From: an uncultured Pseudodesulfovibrio sp.
GTDB lineage: Bacteria > Desulfobacterota > Desulfovibrionia > Desulfovibrionales > Desulfovibrionaceae
Length of the DNA stretch: 64,000 nucleotides
Assembly (NCBI RefSeq): GCF_963675635.1
Contig: NZ_OY776488.1
Location: 1,959,501 to 2,023,500, forward strand
Reading direction: 5' to 3'
Every line of letters begins with the position of its first letter. Within the stretch, counting starts at the first letter, position 1. The notes beneath the pieces were generated by a model. That model was not told the DNA's origin, did no database searches, and saw only the letters and a program-made list of their open reading frames with translations. Of this stretch, positions 8,261-16,456 are shown piece after piece. A program made the translations under genes and the position numbers.

Positions 8261-9055
8261 ATGAAACGTCTTTCCATTTGCCTGGCACTCATGCTGTCCA
8301 TGATGCTTGCCGTGGCTTCTACCGCATCCGCAGATGCACTGGCTGAGATCGTCAAGCGCGGCGAACTCCGCGTTGCTGTCCAGACCCAGTGTCCCCCGTT
8401 CAGCTTTTTGGACAAAAACGGCAACCGGACCGGCTCTTCCGTTGAGTTCTGTCGTTTGATGGCTAAAGAAATGGGCGTCGAAATCAAATTCATGGATTAC
8501 GACTGGGATGGCCTGATCCCTGCTCTCCTGTCAGGCAAGGCCGACATGCTGGCTGCCGACATGACCGCAAACCTCCAGCGTGCCCTGAAGGTTTCCTTCA
8601 CTGATGCTTTCTACTACACAGGCTCCGTCGCAGTGACCAAGGCCGATTCCAATATCACGAGCTGGGACCAGATCAACAAGGAAGGCATGAAAGTTGCCGT
8701 CCTGCTCGGCGGAACAGGCGAAGCTGATGCCAAGCGTCTCTTCCCCAATGCAGAAATCAAATCCTACAAGGGCGGCGGCCCCATGCTGCTCAACGCCCTC
8801 ATGGCAGGCAAGGCCGACGTGGCTGTCAACGACAAGACTTCCATCTCCGGCAGCCTTGCTTCCTTCCCGCCGAACACCACCCGCTTCGTGGGTGATATCA
8901 TGTCCAAGCAGCCCCTGGCCTTCGCCGTTCGCCATGAAGACGAAAACCTGCGCCAGTGGATCAACCTGTTCTTCGGCTGGGTCAAGTCCGATGGCCGTTA
9001 TGATGAAAACATCAAGTACTGGGTCGATTCCAAGACCTGGGAACAAGATCACTAG
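8261..9055 (+). CDS. Polar amino-acid ABC transporter, periplasmic binding protein
   Basis: A 264-residue family-3 solute-binding protein (HisJ/GlnH type). A signal peptide is clear: MKRLS, a hydrophobic core, then TASADA with cleavage near residue 24. The mature protein starts with the typical pattern GELRVAVQTQCPPFSFLDKNG and has YDWDGLIPALLSGKADML and the lobe-crossing region with the LGGTGEADAKRLFP segment. An excellent AGGAGG site precedes the ATG. The two downstream genes are its permeases. The ligand is likely an amino acid but is not specified by sequence alone. Confidence 0.88.
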   Translation: MKRLSICLALMLSMMLAVASTASADALAEIVKRGELRVAVQTQCPPFSFLDKNGNRTGSSVEFCRLMAKEMGVEIKFMDYDWDGLIPALLSGKADMLAADMTANLQRALKVSFTDAFYYTGSVAVTKADSNITSWDQINKEGMKVAVLLGGTGEADAKRLFPNAEIKSYKGGGPMLLNALMAGKADVAVNDKTSISGSLASFPPNTTRFVGDIMSKQPLAFAVRHEDENLRQWINLFFGWVKSDGRYDENIKYWVDSKTWEQDH

Positions 9056-9067
9056 ACCGTAAGTGCT

Positions 9068-9096
9068 GCGCCATGTCTCATATCGGGACATGGCGC
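9068..9096 (+). promoter_or_regulatory. Intercistronic stem-loop between binding protein and permease
   Basis: Perfect 10-bp arms GCGCCATGTC / GACATGGCGC around a 9-base loop, without a T-run. Such hairpins after binding-protein genes commonly protect the upstream message or attenuate read-through, giving more binding protein than permease. That role is inferred here. Its position argues against a GTG start at 9063 for the next gene. Confidence 0.65.
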
Positions 9097-9119
9097 ATCT
9101 CCATACGGATTCGTCACAC

Positions 9120-9788
9120 ATGCTCGAATATTTCAATTTTCGCATTATATGGGAGTACATGCCTCTGTTCATGGAGGGGCTGTACCATACTGCCTGGATT
9201 TCGCTGATCGGCATCATCGGCTCACTCATTGTGGGCATGGTTGCCTGTGCCTGCCGAATTTCTGGCATCAAACTGCTAGCAGCACCAGCCGTGGCCTTTA
9301 TTGAGGTCATCCGCTCCACCCCTCTGCTGGCTCAACTCTATTTTCTGTACTTCGGACTTCCGTCCCTCGGCATACAGGTCAACGAACTGACGACGGGCAT
9401 ATTCGCGCTCTCTTTCAACTCAGGAGCATATGTCGCTGAAATCCTGCGTGCCGGAATCAAGGGGATTCCCGCGGGACAGGTTGAAGCCGCCATGGGCCAA
9501 GGATTCAACGTTTACCAACGTTTTTTCTACATCATCCTGCCCCAGGCCCTTGCAAACACTTTGCCGCCGATGCTCGGACAGGCCATCGTGCTGGTCAAGG
9601 ACTCTGCCGTACTCTCTCTCATCTCCGTAATGGAACTGACGCGTGCCGGACAGATGCTCAACTCCGAACGGTTCATGCCGTCAGAAGCATTCCTGACTGT
9701 GGCCGTCCTCTACCTGCTCGTCTACTACGTGCTCAAGGGGCTGACCAAATACTATCAAATGCGCATGACGCGCTTCAGGAGCGCATAA
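9120..9788 (+). CDS. Amino-acid ABC transporter permease (first of pair)
   Basis: A 222-residue HisM/GlnP-type inner-membrane permease with about five helices. The EAA loop near residues 119-150 reads EILRAGIKGIPAGQVEAAMG, the site that couples to the ATPase. RSTPLLAQLYFLYFGLP is the standard family segment. An in-frame GTG at 9063 would add 19 residues but lies within the hairpin region, so ATG at 9120 is preferred; its ribosome site is poor, suggesting coupling to the preceding gene. The paired permease starts 3 bases after the stop. Confidence 0.86.
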   Translation: MLEYFNFRIIWEYMPLFMEGLYHTAWISLIGIIGSLIVGMVACACRISGIKLLAAPAVAFIEVIRSTPLLAQLYFLYFGLPSLGIQVNELTTGIFALSFNSGAYVAEILRAGIKGIPAGQVEAAMGQGFNVYQRFFYIILPQALANTLPPMLGQAIVLVKDSAVLSLISVMELTRAGQMLNSERFMPSEAFLTVAVLYLLVYYVLKGLTKYYQMRMTRFRSA

Positions 9789-9791
9789 GCC

Positions 9792-10460
9792 ATGTGGGGA
9801 TTCTACTTCGACCAACTCATGAACAGCATGCCCATGTTCTTCAAAGGCATGTGGGTGACCGTGGCAGTGTCCGCGCTCAGTCTCATCGGCGGCACCATTA
9901 TCGGAGTCATTGCCGGGATTTTGCGCTCAAACGAAGGCACGTTCATGTCACGCATCCTCTCTTTGTATGTAGACTTCATGCGCGGCACGCCGTTTCTCGT
10001 CCAATTGTTCATCATCTTCTTCATCCTGCCGGAATTCGGTTTACAGATGGAAGCCTTCACTGCTGCAGTGGTCAGCCTGACCATTTATGCAGGATCATAC
10101 ATCTGTGAAATCGTATCAGCATCCATCCAAGCTGTTCCTCCGGGACAGGAAGAGGCCTGCCGGTCTCTGGGACACACCCGGAATCAGGCGATGCGCCTGG
10201 TTATTCTGCCGCAGGCTCTGCGCATGGCACTCCCTGCTTTGGTGGGTCAGTACGTGCTGCTCATCAAGGATTCATCCATTGTCTCCGTCATAGGCCTGAC
10301 AGACATCACCCGCGCCGGTTGGCTGACAGTCCAGCGCGTACCGGAAGGGATCATGGTCTTCGGACTGGTTGGGATAATGTACTTTGCAGTCTGTTACCCG
10401 CTCATTCAGCTTTCCAATATCCTGGAGAAGAAATTCTCTACAGGTGAAATGAAACTGTAA
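9792..10460 (+). CDS. Amino-acid ABC transporter permease (second of pair)
   Basis: A 222-residue HisQ/GlnP-type permease homologous to its upstream neighbour. It has five predicted helices, RGTPFLVQLFIIFFILP, and the EAA loop EIVSASIQAVPPGQEEACRS. Together the two should form the heterodimeric membrane channel. No ATP-binding gene follows: a terminator sits 20 bases after the stop, so the ATPase must be encoded elsewhere or shared with another importer. Confidence 0.87.
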   Translation: MWGFYFDQLMNSMPMFFKGMWVTVAVSALSLIGGTIIGVIAGILRSNEGTFMSRILSLYVDFMRGTPFLVQLFIIFFILPEFGLQMEAFTAAVVSLTIYAGSYICEIVSASIQAVPPGQEEACRSLGHTRNQAMRLVILPQALRMALPALVGQYVLLIKDSSIVSVIGLTDITRAGWLTVQRVPEGIMVFGLVGIMYFAVCYPLIQLSNILEKKFSTGEMKL

Positions 10461-10510: not shown

Positions 10511-10863
10511 TCTTTGTCAAATGGATTCCATGACAAGAGTCAGAAAGCATGATGCAACTTTTGGCGGAAGCTGTCGTGGCCGCATCTGAAAATGCGCTAT
10601 GTCCACCTTCGCAGTCACTCTACCCCCTAGAGACCGGGATAGTTCCTTCGGCTATGAAAGGGGCAACGTTCTTTAGCTGGGTCTACCGAGATGGGCGAAA
10701 GGGAGATTGAAACCTATACAAAAGCAGAGAAAGCCCCTTGCGTCGAAGTACTCACCTCAACTGACAACGGACTCCTTTCTCAAGACTCTCAGCGTTCAGC
10801 CTCACCCTCGAACAACAAATCCGCCAAAAGGCGGACTTGAAGAACTACAGAATATTCAAAAAA
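10511..10863. other. Intergenic region, no supported gene
   Basis: This 353-base stretch separates two converging operons. A 52-codon open frame (10552-10710, plus strand; begins MQLLAEAVVAASENAL) is present, but it has no good ribosome site and I recognise no family, so it is not called. A small hairpin TCCGCC-AAAA-GGCGGA at 10820-10835 lies 29 bases beyond the stop of the minus-strand carboxypeptidase gene and may be its weak terminator. Confidence 0.5.
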
Positions 10864-12621
10864 TTAATTTGTCGCTGAAGAAAGTCCGGCGAAAGTCCCC
10901 GAGGTAAAGGTCATGGTTCCGAGATCACCGAAGGTCGTTGCCTGACGCACAGTCAGGGGCAACGGCTTGCCAATCTCTACGGTAAAGGAGTCGCCCTTTT
11001 CCAACGGCATACTCTTGGTCGTCGTAATCAGCTTGTCGTTTGGACCATTACTCCAGGTAGCCTCCAAAACATACCGCCCCTCAGGCAGGTGATAGCTCCG
11101 ACCAGCCATCCAAGGCACGAGCAGTGTCTGCCCCCGCTCGTCAGCGAGTTTAAGTGCATGCACCCGACGAGGGGCTACATCCACATAAAATTCGGCTTTC
11201 GGGGCACCGGGTGTCTCACGCACAACCCTGAACCTGGTTATCTCAGAGCGATCTGACTTGACAGCATACCGTTCTATAAAGTTGTCGGGATCAAGGATGA
11301 TTTCCCACCCAAGGTCCTGACCGTTATTTGCCCATGGGATGGCTACAAAACCCTTGAGGTTGATGATTTCCTTAAGGTCACTCCCCCACAGACCTTCCAA
11401 AATAAGCTGATCGCCAAGGACAGTCTGCAAGACATCTCCTTCACGAACAAACGCAGGCTTACCATTGAGCCAGCAGACGAATACCGACTTATCCTCACCC
11501 GGAGACTGCGGCATCTTGCCTGTCCACTTGATCTGCGCTTTGGCAATACGCTTGCCGTCAGACCGCAGTTCCAACTCGGAAAACTGCTCCAGAACCATGC
11601 GCCGTGCATTTATCAGGTTCACGCCGGGACGATCAGAAGCAAAGAGTGCCAACTCCGGTGCAAATTCACTCGGGCCGCGTTCAAGAGGTTCAACAGACAG
11701 CGTCGATCCCGGAGCCAGGTTAACAACTTCGCCGTTCAGGGTACGTCCGTTAACACTGACTCTCACACCTTTACGAGCATACGCTCGGACATCCTCGTCC
11801 GAAAACTCAGGTGGGATGATACCGACGCCGAAACGCCGCAGGAGCATGATGGTGGCGGACAACTGCTGGCGCACTTTCCAATCTATCTCGCGAATGGACT
11901 TGCTGACCTCCACGGCCATGGCCGGAATGCCATGCTCAGCCAGAGCGTAACAGGTCAGGGATTTGCGCATTTCAGGATATGCCGTCCCCTTGTCGAATGT
12001 TTTTGTGTTGAAAAGCTTGAATTGGTAATCGCGGGTTACGATATTACCATTGAGTTCTTCCAGAACGGAGTTAACGGTATGCGCAAGGTCGATCTTGTCG
12101 AAGACCAATGTGTCCACGATAATGGACTGCCCATAACGTTTCGGGTTACGCAGGTTGTCCACATAGGTAGGATCATAGAACCCGCTTCCTTCGTGAAGAT
12201 GGATGAAGGCGTCACTCTGGGCCAGCAGGAACCGTATGACACGGGCTACCCTGTCCTCGTAAAAGCGGTTATAATGCTGATCAAACCGCCGGTTCATGTC
12301 TACATTGATCTGCCGTTTATGCAGATTGATGGACGGCACATTGGCTCGCGGCAGAATAATGACGTTCCCACGAGTCACCTTGGCCTGAGTCAGCAGCTGA
12401 GCTGTGACGAACCCGGAGGTTTCATCTCCCTGAATTCCTCCTTGCACCATGATAGTAGGCCCGTCTTCCTCCCCTTGGAGAAAAACCACTTTCAACGGAT
12501 ACTGGGTACCAGCAAAAAATGAATGCTCCCATGCCCCGGCATGGGCATGAGACACAAAAAGCAGCACAATCAGGCTAAGCGAGAATGTGGTAAAGAGGAT
12601 AGGTTTCGGCAAAGATGACAT
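10864..12621 (-). CDS. Csd4-like M99/M14 zinc carboxypeptidase, exported (probable peptidoglycan-trimming, cell-shape enzyme)
   Basis: A 585-residue exported protein. ATG at 12621 gives a clean signal peptide (cleavage near HAHA-GAW) and has GGTGGAG upstream; a 47-residue longer frame does not. The metallopeptidase domain has GGIQGDE (Gln64, Glu67) and HLHEG (His143), with a likely catalytic Glu238 in AVEVSK. Most M14 enzymes have His in the first position; Gln there is the hallmark reported for H. pylori Csd4, which trims tripeptide stems to dipeptides and controls helical shape. The C-terminal ~300 residues are beta-rich accessory domains. Third gene of an operon with a Csd6-like protein; its start overlaps the middle gene by 47 bases. 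Function is inferred by homology. Confidence 0.8.
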   Translation of the reverse strand: MSSLPKPILFTTFSLSLIVLLFVSHAHAGAWEHSFFAGTQYPLKVVFLQGEEDGPTIMVQGGIQGDETSGFVTAQLLTQAKVTRGNVIILPRANVPSINLHKRQINVDMNRRFDQHYNRFYEDRVARVIRFLLAQSDAFIHLHEGSGFYDPTYVDNLRNPKRYGQSIIVDTLVFDKIDLAHTVNSVLEELNGNIVTRDYQFKLFNTKTFDKGTAYPEMRKSLTCYALAEHGIPAMAVEVSKSIREIDWKVRQQLSATIMLLRRFGVGIIPPEFSDEDVRAYARKGVRVSVNGRTLNGEVVNLAPGSTLSVEPLERGPSEFAPELALFASDRPGVNLINARRMVLEQFSELELRSDGKRIAKAQIKWTGKMPQSPGEDKSVFVCWLNGKPAFVREGDVLQTVLGDQLILEGLWGSDLKEIINLKGFVAIPWANNGQDLGWEIILDPDNFIERYAVKSDRSEITRFRVVRETPGAPKAEFYVDVAPRRVHALKLADERGQTLLVPWMAGRSYHLPEGRYVLEATWSNGPNDKLITTTKSMPLEKGDSFTVEIGKPLPLTVRQATTFGDLGTMTFTSGTFAGLSSATN

Positions 12622-13282
12622 CTCCACCCTTCCCTTTGATTTCCAAACGTAGACCGAAAAGGTCGTCCTTACCCACACCGTCAGGGAGAAGGAAGGTGGT
12701 CTGAATACGCTTGAAGCGTTGAATCTGGAATCCAAGGTCGTTTTTGTTTGTCTTGGCCGCAACGGACGTCCCGTCTTTCTTTATAAAGACAAAATCAGCC
12801 TGTCCTGCCATGGGCTTGGATGCCTGAAGGTTATTGAGCTCAAAAGTAACAGCAAGCTTTCGATTGGTGAGCTTTGCCTGAAGATTTTCCACACCGACCT
12901 GCTGCGTGTCGAGACGGACGAAAATTTCATTGAGATTGATCTCGACCTGCTGAACTGGTTCCTCCTCTTCGGGAGAAGTGGCAGCGGAAAGCAGGGATTG
13001 CAACTCGGCAGGATCATAGGATTCGAGAATCTTTTCCATATTGCCAAGACGTTCAAGACGAACTTCGGCATCAACCAAACGTTGTTCAAGATCTTTTTTT
13101 TCGGAGTGGAGATCGGCATTGATTTTGAAACCACGCACGCCCATATAGATGCCGCCAGCCGCAAAGAGAAAAAGGAATATCTGGCTGAAGATAAACATCT
13201 TTAGCCAAAACGGACTGACACGATACCGGGTCACATCCCGATCGTCGCGCATAAAAAGAACGCTGTATTTCGAATCGCTCAT
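12575..13282 (-). CDS. Inner-membrane protein with periplasmic coiled coil, in the shape operon
   Basis: A 235-residue protein of unknown family. A short basic N-terminus (about 30 residues) precedes one transmembrane helix (residues 31-50). Then comes a heptad-like coiled coil (about 57-90, rich in Lys/Glu/Leu), an acidic linker with EEEE, and a beta-rich C-terminal domain. The topology resembles membrane-anchored scaffolds such as divisome or cell-shape factors that place periplasmic enzymes. It sits between, and overlaps, both carboxypeptidase-type genes (4 bases upstream, 47 downstream), so a shared function is likely. No signature lets me name it. Confidence 0.7.
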   Translation of the reverse strand: MSDSKYSVLFMRDDRDVTRYRVSPFWLKMFIFSQIFLFLFAAGGIYMGVRGFKINADLHSEKKDLEQRLVDAEVRLERLGNMEKILESYDPAELQSLLSAATSPEEEEPVQQVEINLNEIFVRLDTQQVGVENLQAKLTNRKLAVTFELNNLQASKPMAGQADFVFIKKDGTSVAAKTNKNDLGFQIQRFKRIQTTFLLPDGVGKDDLFGLRLEIKGKGGDVIFAETYPLYHILA

Positions 13283-14538
13283 CTACCCCGTCTCCATTGC
13301 TCACTGTCAATTTTCCATGTGTTCCCGTCCGGGGTCAGGACCATGGTTTTCAGTCCCACATCGCTGTACCCGTCCGCACTTTCAAACACCTGGGTGAACG
13401 CTACTTCAAGCCCCTTGGGGTGTTGGGTCACGGTCAAACCGTCAATTTCAACCTTAACAGGAGGTTTGGTAGCCCACAATGTCTTTTTGTAATCAGCAAT
13501 GGATACGGCACCTTTTCGGCTGCCCTGCACAGCCTGCGGCCCATAAAAAGTTATATACGAGTCCACATCCCCTGCCAGCCATGCAGCACGCCAGGCCTTC
13601 ACCAGTCCTTGAACATCAGTCTGTTTAGAGGCAAGATACTTGGCGCCCAGATCCTCTGAAGCCGGGACATATTCACGGCCGACAATGCGCCACTTTCCGG
13701 CATCATCCTTCTGCCAATAAAATCGCTTGCCGGTGGTCGAGGCCATGCCGGGTGCACGATAATACTGATCAAACCATGTGACCCAATAGCCGGGACCGGG
13801 CACAGCGCGAACATTGTCCACCATGACCTGAATCCACGGCTGGCGAGAAAAAATTCCCTGCTTGTGCGCAACGAATCCGGAAAAATCAGTCCCCTCGCTC
13901 GCTGTCATGAGGTCGGCATTGTAATGATCGAAAAACCCTTCATCCTGGCGCTGCCAATCATTGGCCCAGGCATCGAGTTCCCGAACCAGAGTCAGTGCGG
14001 TGACTTCACTCTCACCAGGATCCCGTGTCCAATCGAGATTGTTGGCAATGACAACCGGTGTGCCATACTCTGACTCCAGAGCCACATTCTGCATGTCGGG
14101 CACCTTGAGAGCTACACAGCCAAGTGTATCTCGTGGCACGAAGGTCTTTCCCCGACCATGAAGCCAGATACCGCTGCCGGTCTTGCCGTTGATACGATCA
14201 ATAGGATTGGGATAATTTAGAGAATAGGCAATATCTCCATAGAGGGCCCAGTCAAGCTTGCGGTTGATCCGATGCCCTACAAAATACACTCCCTCAGGAG
14301 TGCGCAAATCACCTTCCACCAACTTATCGCCAGTGGATTGTCCCGTGGTACAGGGGAAGCGGAGCACCTCATGCAAGGGGCTCTTGCGTTCCAGCATGAT
14401 CAGTTCCTGGGTAGCCTTGTCCACGGCGATAATACGCTCGGGACCGTACGAGTGCGATGAAAGAGTGGGGGTCCACCCTTCGGCAAACGCCATGCTTACA
14501 GACATGACCAATATCAGAACAACCAGAGCTACACGCAT
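13279..14538 (-). CDS. Csd6/Pgp2-like YkuD-family protein with C-terminal NTF2-like domain
   Basis: A 419-residue exported protein with a signal peptide (MRVAL...AFAEG). A YkuD L,D-transpeptidase/carboxypeptidase domain covers about residues 35-155, with the catalytic pair His127 (IWLHGRG) and Cys141 (DTLGCVAL). The C-terminal third has the NTF2-like fold pattern, AWRAAWLAGDVDSYITFYG near residues 310-330 and VFTQ/DSEQWR-type strands after it. The YkuD plus NTF2 layout is that of Csd6 (H. pylori), Pgp2 (Campylobacter) and Bd1075 (Bdellovibrio), which cut the last residue from tetrapeptides and bend the cell. A TTC-free longer frame starts at 14583, but the signal peptide favours 14538. First gene of the operon. 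Confidence 0.8.
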   Translation of the reverse strand: MRVALVVLILVMSVSMAFAEGWTPTLSSHSYGPERIIAVDKATQELIMLERKSPLHEVLRFPCTTGQSTGDKLVEGDLRTPEGVYFVGHRINRKLDWALYGDIAYSLNYPNPIDRINGKTGSGIWLHGRGKTFVPRDTLGCVALKVPDMQNVALESEYGTPVVIANNLDWTRDPGESEVTALTLVRELDAWANDWQRQDEGFFDHYNADLMTASEGTDFSGFVAHKQGIFSRQPWIQVMVDNVRAVPGPGYWVTWFDQYYRAPGMASTTGKRFYWQKDDAGKWRIVGREYVPASEDLGAKYLASKQTDVQGLVKAWRAAWLAGDVDSYITFYGPQAVQGSRKGAVSIADYKKTLWATKPPVKVEIDGLTVTQHPKGLEVAFTQVFESADGYSDVGLKTMVLTPDGNTWKIDSEQWRRGR

Positions 14539-14598
14539 GTAAGTATACCCAATCCTCCCACGGTTTCCCCAAACCAGATACATCCCCGACGGGTCAAA

Positions 14599-15156
14599 CT
14601 ATTTGCCTGCAGCCAGCAACTCCTGACGGGTGAAGATGGCACTCAATTCAAGCCCGGCTTCCTTGAGTCTTTCCCGTCCGCCTTCTTCTCTGTCCAGAAC
14701 AGCGAGTACGCCAACGATCTCCAGCCCCGCGTCACGCACACGCTCTGCAGCAGTTGCCAAGGTACCACCTGTGGTACAAACATCTTCAAGAAGGACGACT
14801 TTATCACCTTCACTGAAATTTGCCAGCCCTTCAAGGTATTGATTAGTCCCATGACCTTTGGATTTTTTGCGAATAATAAATCCCGGCAGGGGCCGTCCCT
14901 CAAGATGAGAGACCACAGTCACAGCAGTAATCAGGGGATCAGCACCAAGAGTCATGCCGCCAACGCCATGGACATCGAAGTCTTTGAGCATCTCAAAGAA
15001 CAGTCGCCCGATGAGATACCCGCCCTCGGCATGGAGTGCGGTCTGCTTGCAGTCAAAATAGTACTCGCTTTTCTTGCCGGAAGTCAGCGTGAAATCGCCC
15101 TCCTTATAGGAGAGCTGAAGCAATAGTCTGGCGAGTTTGGATTTCAATTCATTCAT
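14599..15156 (-). CDS. pyrE: Orotate phosphoribosyltransferase
   Basis: A 185-residue enzyme that joins orotate to PRPP to give OMP in pyrimidine synthesis. The PRPP-binding motif VVLLEDVCTTGGT is at about residues 118-130, and the mobile-loop lysines are in IIRKKSKGHGTNQYLEG. FTLTSGKKSEYYFDCK is the N-terminal signature of the PyrE group. ATG at 15156 has GAGGAAAG at a good distance and leaves one base after the purB stop, so the two are cotranscribed. A 31-residue upstream extension of the frame is rejected because it lies inside purB. Confidence 0.93.
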   Translation of the reverse strand: MNELKSKLARLLLQLSYKEGDFTLTSGKKSEYYFDCKQTALHAEGGYLIGRLFFEMLKDFDVHGVGGMTLGADPLITAVTVVSHLEGRPLPGFIIRKKSKGHGTNQYLEGLANFSEGDKVVLLEDVCTTGGTLATAAERVRDAGLEIVGVLAVLDREEGGRERLKEAGLELSAIFTRQELLAAGK

Positions 15157-15157
15157 A

Positions 15158-16456
15158 CTATCTTTCCTCAAAGACGCGGCTGAAAACCACATCCTCATAT
15201 CGTTTGTAATACGAAGGGTCGAAGGCTTCGTCAAGGTCGTTAGATGCAAGATGCTTATTTACTTCCGCATCCACACGGATCTCATCTTCGAACTGAATAC
15301 GGTTCTCCCAGCAGCGCAAAGCGACCTTCTGAACCATCTCATAGGCTTCCTGCCGCTTCAGGCCGGTAGCAATAAGTTTATTGAGAATTCGCTGAGAGTA
15401 AAACAGACCGAATGATCCCATCAAATTGCGTTGAATACTTTCTTCTTTGACCACCAGACGTTCAAGCACGCCGGACATGCGATGCAGCATGTAATCCATA
15501 AGGGCAGTGGTGTCGGGCATAATCACGCGTTCCACAGACGAATGGGAAATATCACGTTCGTGCCAGAGCGCCTGGTTTTCCATGGCTGCCATTGAATTGG
15601 AACGTATGAGCCGTGCCAGACCGCAGAGATTTTCCGCAGAAATGGGGTTCTTCTTGTGCGGCATGGCCGAGGAGCCTTTCTGCCCTTTGGAGAAACCTTC
15701 TTCCACTTCCGAAACCTCGGTGCGCTGCAGGTGCCTGAGTTCCAGACCAAGGCGCTCAATGCCACCAGCCATCATGGCCAGTGCGGTAAAGAATTGAGCA
15801 TACCGATCACGCTGCACAATCTGCGTGGAGTGCGGGTCCGCCTTGAGTCCGAGAATAGCACAGGCACGCTCTTCCAGGTCAGGGCTGAGATGCGCGAAAG
15901 TCCCCACTGCGCCCGACAGCTTGCCGACGCGGATATTCTCGCGAGCTGCGTCAAAGCGCTCCTTGTGGCGCATGAATTCTGCATAGAAGCCCGTAAATTT
16001 GAGACCGTAGGTGGTGGGTTCCGCATGGATGCCGTGAGTCCGGCCCATACAGAGCAACCCTTTATGCTTGTGAGCCAGCTCATCAAGGACTTTCAGGATG
16101 CGATCCACGCCTTCCGCGAGAATATTTCCAGCCCTGAGGAGCAATACGCCGTTGGCCGTATCCACAATATCCGACGAGGTGCAGCCCAGATGGATGTACC
16201 GGGAACTGGGACCGACCTTTTCTTCCACGGCAGACAGAAAAGCGATGACGTCGTGCTTGGTGGTCTCTTCGATCTCAAGGATGCGCTCAAGATCAAAGTC
16301 GGCCTTTTCATGAATTTCGTCACAGGCCTCCTGAGGGACCTGACCGAGTTCGGTCCACCCCTTGGTCACGGCCAGTTCCACCTCAAGCCAGACCCTGAAC
16401 TTGTTTTCAAGGGTCCACAACTCTCTCATCCCGGGTCGGGAATACCGTTCAAGCAT
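15158..16456 (-). CDS. purB: Adenylosuccinate lyase
   Basis: A 432-residue enzyme of the fumarase/aspartase superfamily acting twice in purine synthesis (SAICAR and adenylosuccinate cleavage). The family signature GSSAMPHKKNPI, with the catalytic mobile loop Ser, is at about residues 261-272. GCTSSDIVDTANG and GRTHGIHAEPTTYG (catalytic His) are also present. The length matches the bacterial 430-residue class. It precedes pyrE by one base, a purine-pyrimidine pairing that suggests joint control. Confidence 0.95.
   Translation of the reverse strand: MLERYSRPGMRELWTLENKFRVWLEVELAVTKGWTELGQVPQEACDEIHEKADFDLERILEIEETTKHDVIAFLSAVEEKVGPSSRYIHLGCTSSDIVDTANGVLLLRAGNILAEGVDRILKVLDELAHKHKGLLCMGRTHGIHAEPTTYGLKFTGFYAEFMRHKERFDAARENIRVGKLSGAVGTFAHLSPDLEERACAILGLKADPHSTQIVQRDRYAQFFTALAMMAGGIERLGLELRHLQRTEVSEVEEGFSKGQKGSSAMPHKKNPISAENLCGLARLIRSNSMAAMENQALWHERDISHSSVERVIMPDTTALMDYMLHRMSGVLERLVVKEESIQRNLMGSFGLFYSQRILNKLIATGLKRQEAYEMVQKVALRCWENRIQFEDEIRVDAEVNKHLASNDLDEAFDPSYYKRYEDVVFSRVFEER

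Follow-up and report, generated by a model that had tools for sequence, protein, structure and literature searches.

We analysed a 64,000-nt window of the genome of an uncultured Pseudodesulfovibrio sp. (assembly GCF_963675635.1, contig NZ_OY776488.1, positions 1,959,501-2,023,500 of the forward strand), and all coordinates given below are those within the window. Its minus strand carries a run which reads, from 5' to 3', purB, pyrE, a csd6-like gene, a gene which we call mid, and a csd4-like gene. The preliminary description of this DNA had placed two peptidoglycan carboxypeptidases in one overlapping operon, and whilst the two enzyme genes do lie in the same run, they do not touch each other: mid sits between them and overlaps both. 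The stop codon of csd6 and the start of mid overlap as ATGA, and the start of csd4 lies inside the 3' end of mid, giving an overlap of 47 bases. The csd4 start is most likely that at 12621 (585 aa) rather than the start of the 632-codon open reading frame (ORF). The features of the run are as follows.

13279..14538, minus strand: csd6-like gene, 419 aa, alternative start at 14583 (Pfam and PDB matches, alignment)
13681..13989, minus strand: first NTF2 (Cds6_C) domain of the csd6-like protein (profile match)
13300..13605, minus strand: second NTF2 (Cds6_C) domain of the csd6-like protein (profile match)
12575..13282, minus strand: mid, 235 codons (ORF reading, profile matches in relatives)
13217..13267, minus strand: N-terminal beta-hairpin of mid, residues 6-22 (structure model), presumed cytoplasmic
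13142..13198, minus strand: residues 29-47 of mid, its best hydrophobic stretch of 19 residues, within the predicted helix 24-88
12584..12916, minus strand: immunoglobulin (Ig)-like beta-sandwich of mid, residues 123-233 (structure model), presumed periplasmic
10864..12621, minus strand: csd4-like gene, 585 aa (Pfam and PDB matches, structure model)
11827..12471, minus strand: M99 catalytic domain of the csd4-like protein (profile match, alignment)
15158..16456, minus strand: purB, upstream of pyrE in the run (Pfam match)
14599..15156, minus strand: pyrE, between purB and the csd6-like gene in the run (Pfam match)
10816..10839, minus strand: terminator-like hairpin directly 3' of csd4, spotted by eye and without a listing in the terminator scan

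Two predicted trimming enzymes

The csd6-like protein runs from a signal-peptide-like start through a YkuD domain, containing His127 and Cys141 (counted from the ATG at 14538), into two NTF2 domains. The YkuD domain with this His/Cys pair, as first proposed for the protein, is borne out by a match to PF03734 (4.7e-16), far beyond chance, and by the retention of both residues in all 23 aligned csd6-like sequences. The accompanying label 'YkuD-NTF2' was right as to kinship but implied a single NTF2 domain, whereas PF24125 (Cds6_C) matches the protein in two stretches (5e-27). The best PDB matches are, in order, 7o21 (2e-32), 6xj6 (1.7e-20) and 4xzz (4.5e-20), which are described as the structures of Bd1075, Pgp2 and Csd6, respectively (PMC8938487). 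The window protein shares with these the combination of YkuD and NTF2 and the catalytic His and Cys, and has Ala two residues after the Cys (C+2) as in Csd6 and Pgp2; it differs in carrying two NTF2 domains where they have one. We conclude that it is a predicted L,D-carboxypeptidase of the Csd6/Pgp2 kind. The YkuD fold is common to other activities, and the protein might instead be a true L,D-transpeptidase or a lipoprotein-freeing enzyme of the YafK/DpaA type. The DpaA model NF040599 is matched weakly, at 24.8 bits where its cut-off is 365, and the Ala at C+2, present in the window protein and in 19 of the 23 aligned sequences, is also reported in YafK-like enzymes (PMC8938487). Nevertheless, the closest solved relatives are the three named above, matching over both the YkuD and the NTF2 parts, and Arg at C+2 occurs in none of the 23 sequences; we regard this alternative as very improbable. 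The number and spacing of NTF2 domains vary amongst relatives, since three NTF2 matches are seen in the Csd6-like proteins of genus g7 genomes (e.g. G021) and a Csd6-like protein of ~700 aa occurs in metagenome-assembled genomes (MAGs) named Desulfovibrio.

The csd4-like protein comprises a signal-peptide-like start, an M99 carboxypeptidase domain and further beta domains. It had been read as a Csd4-like zinc carboxypeptidase on account of its GGIQGDE motif, and this holds: the motif is present, PF17033 (M99) matches at 109.9 bits (1.9e-31; cut-off 27) and a PDB search matches the H. pylori Csd4 chains at 1.4e-24. Structural comparison with Csd4, which the preliminary description put forward as a check, agrees, in that the five top solved matches of the protein's model are all H. 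pylori Csd4. Gln-x-x-Glu replaces His-x-x-Glu in this protein, with Q64 aligning with the residue altered in 4wcm (Gln46His), and the further aligned positions, E67, H141, H143 and E238, take in the His and catalytic Glu of the family; these positions have ligand roles. Q64, E67, H141 and E238, together with nine other checked positions, are invariant in all 18 aligned M99 sequences. The protein thus resembles Csd4/Pgp1 of Helicobacter and Campylobacter in having an M99 domain with the metal motif Gln-x-x-Glu and with invariant positions for His and Glu, and in its best structural match, but identity is only ~21-24% (89 bits), its C-terminus is ~100 residues longer and its gene lies in a single run with csd6 and mid. 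It is best described as a divergent Csd4/Pgp1-like M99 carboxypeptidase, predicted to act as a D,L-carboxypeptidase. Judged by sequence comparison, the csd6-like and csd4-like proteins are very probably both trimming enzymes.

Distribution of the three genes and a switch of Csd4 kinds

Profile searches covered 199 genomes of the class to which the window's host belongs, with a genome lacking a listed match counted as absent. Loci fetched for reading, in the class and outside it, were picked from the matches with no random draw, and checks against named genomes covered 38 of the 80 loci. Of these genomes, 152 gave a match to M99, 175 to the Csd6 NTF2 domain and 164 to mid, with 149 containing all three and 20 containing none. 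Across 20 loci, one per genus and picked for both enzyme genes lying close, purB, csd6 and csd4 keep the same order throughout, with mid present in 19 and pyrE in 19. mid adjoins csd6 in 19 of these 20 and in 16 of the 20 loci of a second chosen set, including where csd4 lies elsewhere; bd1075, in contrast, is described as monocistronic (PMC8938487). Of 20 loci drawn from matches outside the class, 12 have csd6, mid and csd4 as direct neighbours and two have csd6 and mid only, the remainder showing a lone M99 or a stray profile match. The triad of csd6, mid and csd4 behind purB and pyrE is therefore old in the Desulfovibrionales and occurs in other Desulfobacterota, and given that side-by-side triads are also found outside the class, it is probably older than the class. 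Variants of the arrangement were also seen. At L037 (G152, genus g13) there is no pyrE match between purB and csd6, and in one family (G045, G058, G162 and G184) two Csd6-type frames that match NTF2 very strongly adjoin each other, M99 is absent and mid lies at another place in the genome, csd6 and mid being apart in, for example, G058.

The linkage of the two enzyme genes had been offered as a novelty, and the system as one not usually described for Desulfobacterota, but earlier work supports neither claim. pgp1 and pgp2 were reported within 300 bp of each other in four organisms, one of them a deltaproteobacterium, in 2014 (PMC3961634), and Pgp1 had been reported in 2012 mainly in helical or vibrioid epsilon- and delta-Proteobacteria (PMC3310789). 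Neighbouring pgp1 and pgp2 genes are reported for Nautilia, Nitratiruptor and Persephonella. Both enzyme families, and their linkage in kind, are already known. In the available portions of the literature on Csd6, Csd4 or pgp1 with Desulfovibrio, no publication describing this run was found, nor any mention of mid, which is searchable there only via those names. The novelty lies in mid as a conserved third gene, in the switch from one kind of Csd4 to the other and in the association of mid with bactofilin.

In Desulfovibrio, Halodesulfovibrio and others, csd6 and mid are kept behind purB and pyrE and M99 lies elsewhere in the genome. One unlinked M99 that was tested matches H. pylori Csd4 at 4.5e-107 over 398 residues and is a near-orthologue. 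We compared 148 of the class genomes with an M99 match (leaving out G156 and G187, which are fragments, and G138 and G068, which were absent from the list), and these divide into 78 with operon-type M99 and 70 with the other type. mid lies within 2 kb of the operon-type M99 in 77 of the 78, the exception (G176) being without mid; in G138, outside the 78, M99 is also linked to mid. Amongst the 70, the position of mid was compared in 44 and was never within 2 kb, and 14 further mid positions examined by eye were likewise not near M99. Both kinds together were found in none of the 148. On a PurB tree, which is a quick gene tree of 61 chosen genomes where good support is seen for 16 of the 57 inner branches, the switch between kinds amounts to four changes, with the well-supported branches alone forcing only two changes for either label, genomes without M99 included. 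As one kind replaces the other, these data suggest that both may do the same job. In a Desulfonauticus MAG (L148, 12858-13331), the csd4 frame ends after 158 codons, through either decay or an assembly fault.

The mid protein and its tie to bactofilin

mid encodes a 235-aa membrane protein of a family not previously described: it gave no Pfam or NCBIfam family over cut-off, and nothing better than E 0.068 in a PDB sequence search. Its model (predicted local distance difference test 83.9, predicted template modelling score 0.49) has a beta-hairpin with strands at 6-10 and 18-22, a helix over 24-88 which opens with a hydrophobic stretch, and a sandwich over 123-233, so that the predicted order is beta-hairpin, membrane helix, coiled coil and Ig-like sandwich; the hydrophobic stretch is kept in all 31 aligned mid rows. 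A short N-terminal part with a beta-hairpin, a membrane helix and a coiled coil are also the elements of LmdC in the LmdC-bactofilin (BacA) module of Hyphomonas and Rhodospirillum, where the cytoplasmic beta-hairpin is reported as required for bactofilin binding and the C-terminus is an M23 peptidase (PMC10945521). We considered whether mid is itself an LmdC, and this is ruled out because the M23 domain is absent (no Pfam match) and an Ig-like sandwich stands in its place. Unlike in that module, no bactofilin gene adjoins mid in the window's genome, and bactofilin binding by mid is putative. Compared by description, mid also recalls the Csd5/Csd7/CcmA scaffold of Helicobacter, in which non-enzymatic membrane proteins join bactofilin to wall enzymes, but the partners described for CcmA in H. 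pylori work with Csd1/Csd2 and MurF (PMC9507126), and mid is encoded beside two carboxypeptidase genes.

Among the matches of the mid profile in other Desulfobacterota, three were read away from a triad, and two of these are M23 peptidases (L202 and L204) in which the matched region is the N-terminus, hairpin included. None of 500 hairpin shuffles scores as high for either protein, and the likeness of mid to them therefore depends on the hairpin. The hairpin profile alone gives E values of 0.089 and 0.22 for L202 and L204, and does not match the one M23 peptidase with a similar N-terminus that the window's genome encodes.

Bactofilin was searched for in the same class genomes after the idea about the hairpin had been noted. 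Across the class, the presence of mid is nearly always tied to that of bactofilin, which is found in 163 of the 164 genomes with mid and is absent from 30 of the 35 without it. The phi coefficient with bactofilin is 0.89 for mid, 0.71 for M99 and 0.56 for csd6. Where the genes part company, 13 of the 14 genomes with csd6 but not mid lack bactofilin, and all 12 with csd6 and mid but not M99 possess it. On the best PurB tree, with branches used irrespective of their support, mid differs within 10 pairs; bactofilin differs in the same sense in seven of these, in the opposite sense in none and not at all in three. That mid acts through bactofilin is a real possibility which we place a little short of an even chance. 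More tentatively still, mid may be the founder of a new class of bactofilin partner, in which an LmdC-like membrane stem has had its peptidase head swapped for a docking domain and bactofilin steers separate carboxypeptidases. Such a partner would supply the missing connection from bactofilin to trimming of the Csd4/Csd6 type, in what would be the general curvature machine of Desulfobacterota.

A number of observations weigh against such coupling. The supported branches of the PurB tree provide only two or three independent pairs for mid and bactofilin, which is not significant, so the test is not free of ancestry. There are exceptions in both directions, with G159 having mid without bactofilin and G008, G054, G132, G176 and G192 the reverse (the bactofilin matches in G008 and G054 being weak). 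The window's genome has two bactofilins, neither of them near the triad, and its own M23 peptidase with a similar N-terminus is marginal by the shuffling test, 10 of 500 hairpin shuffles scoring as high. The Ig-like sandwich is, moreover, a common fold. If one considers that the three genes form a shape module without mid touching bactofilin, then mid might act in the periplasm to stabilise or anchor Csd6 and Csd4, in the way that Csd7 supports Csd1, and the loss of bactofilin from the same lineages would reflect only a role of both in shape, or common ancestry. The adjacency of mid and csd6 in most chosen loci, also where csd4 is elsewhere, would suit this explanation, as would the clustering of losses in few clades on the PurB tree and the small number of supported independent pairs. 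It accounts less readily for bactofilin tracking mid better than csd6 or M99, including where these disagree (13/14 and 12/12), or for the mid profile finding the N-termini of two M23 peptidases with the hairpin included (0/500), and we judge it somewhat unlikely.

Related genes were noted elsewhere in the window's genome (G000). Next to genes read by eye as fliR, flhB and flhA there is an M23 peptidase whose N-terminus is LmdC-like (L217, 4222-5127; G000:C1:848500-857500). Tandem M23 peptidases lie ~8 kb left of the window (L218, 2826-4757; G000:C1:1947500-1956500) and bring the Csd1/Csd2 pair to mind. At L184 (G000:C1:2391500-2399500), one of the two bactofilins is the last gene after mreC, an mreD-like frame, pbp2 and rodA, just before putative ATP synthase subunit genes.

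A possible role in cell curvature

D. piger is straight, and strain ATCC 29098 (represented by G033, with identity by sequence) keeps purB and pyrE and is without csd6, mid, M99 and bactofilin. Eight Desulfomicrobium-like genomes (genus code g41, assigned to Desulfomicrobium by 91% PurB likeness to a Desulfomicrobium record) gave no match to mid, M99 or bactofilin. In published descriptions, D. piger is rod-shaped and immobile beside curved congeners, and Desulfomicrobium is straight (PMC8069399). The genus code of the window's genome is also that of G022, from which a 2-kb stretch recurs without a mismatch in a record of Pseudodesulfovibrio pelocollis SB368. Members of Pseudodesulfovibrio are described as vibrios or curved rods (PMC11505543), in line with the vibrioid host first envisaged. 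S. magneticus RS-1 is reported as vibrioid (PMC12713370), and a MAG of another S. magneticus strain has csd6, mid and an unlinked Csd4. The unlinked Csd4 was also read in relatives of the vibrioid Nitratidesulfovibrio vulgaris Hildenborough.

We lean, with slightly better than even confidence, towards csd6-mid-csd4 being a peptidoglycan-trimming, cell-curvature module, with mid as the coupling between bactofilin and the two carboxypeptidases; that the module has a role in curvature is, taken by itself, probable. This reading rests on homology, conserved catalytic residues, gene order and co-occurrence, from which we infer the activities, the contacts and the effect on shape. The csd6-like enzyme would take D-Ala off tetrapeptides, its NTF2 domains binding the wall, and the csd4-like enzyme would cut the resulting tripeptides to dipeptides. 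mid, in the inner membrane, would hold the pair in place: its cytoplasmic beta-hairpin would bind filaments of bactofilin, and on the periplasmic side its sandwich would hold either the wall or one or both of the enzymes. Trimming would then be uneven around the cell, which would bend. If this is the case, loss of the triad would be a candidate explanation for the lack of curvature in some relatives of Desulfovibrio. The third gene, the switch of Csd4 kinds and the tie to bactofilin make it a testable question whether mid links bactofilin with trimming by the carboxypeptidases.

It may be instead that trimming of stem peptides is a housekeeping activity, serving turnover, stress or recycling signals, and that curvature is not its main job. 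pgp2 homologues are reported as not confined to curved bacteria (PMC3961634), and 12 of the 199 genomes have a Csd6 NTF2 match without mid and M99, Desulfomicrobium-like genomes amongst them, although seven of these matches fall below the family cut-off. Such a role sits poorly with the absence of the whole set from D. piger and of mid, M99 and bactofilin from the Desulfomicrobium-like genomes. It also sits poorly with what is reported of the homologues, given that Campylobacter uses Pgp1 and Pgp2 one after the other and becomes straight when they are lost (PMC3961634, PMC3310789), and that Bdellovibrio without Bd1075 is less curved (PMC8938487). We consider the housekeeping explanation unlikely.

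The proposal that the run is a shape determinant, favoured by the lack of M99 in D. piger and Desulfomicrobium, has several findings to contend with. Twelve of the 199 class genomes have csd6 and mid without an M99 match, including P. pelocollis, whose genus, that of the window, is described as curved, and this speaks against a strict shape rule. Shape is documented for few of the genomes, some lineages that are taken to be curved likewise lack M99, and in D. piger immobility accompanies the lack of the set. Some of the genomes that lack the set measure only 1.4-2.2 Mb, so that general gene loss is a possible cause of its absence. In G068, the operon-type M99 and csd6-mid are on different contigs. 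Outside the class, the two kinds of M99 are less sharply divided, since G439 has both the H. pylori-like and the operon type, and G409 and G390 give intermediate scores (205 and 162 bits).

On the plus strand of the window, at 8261-10460, an amino-acid-type ATP-binding cassette (ABC) transporter, with a binding protein (SBP_bac_3) and two permease-like frames, lies convergent with the triad.

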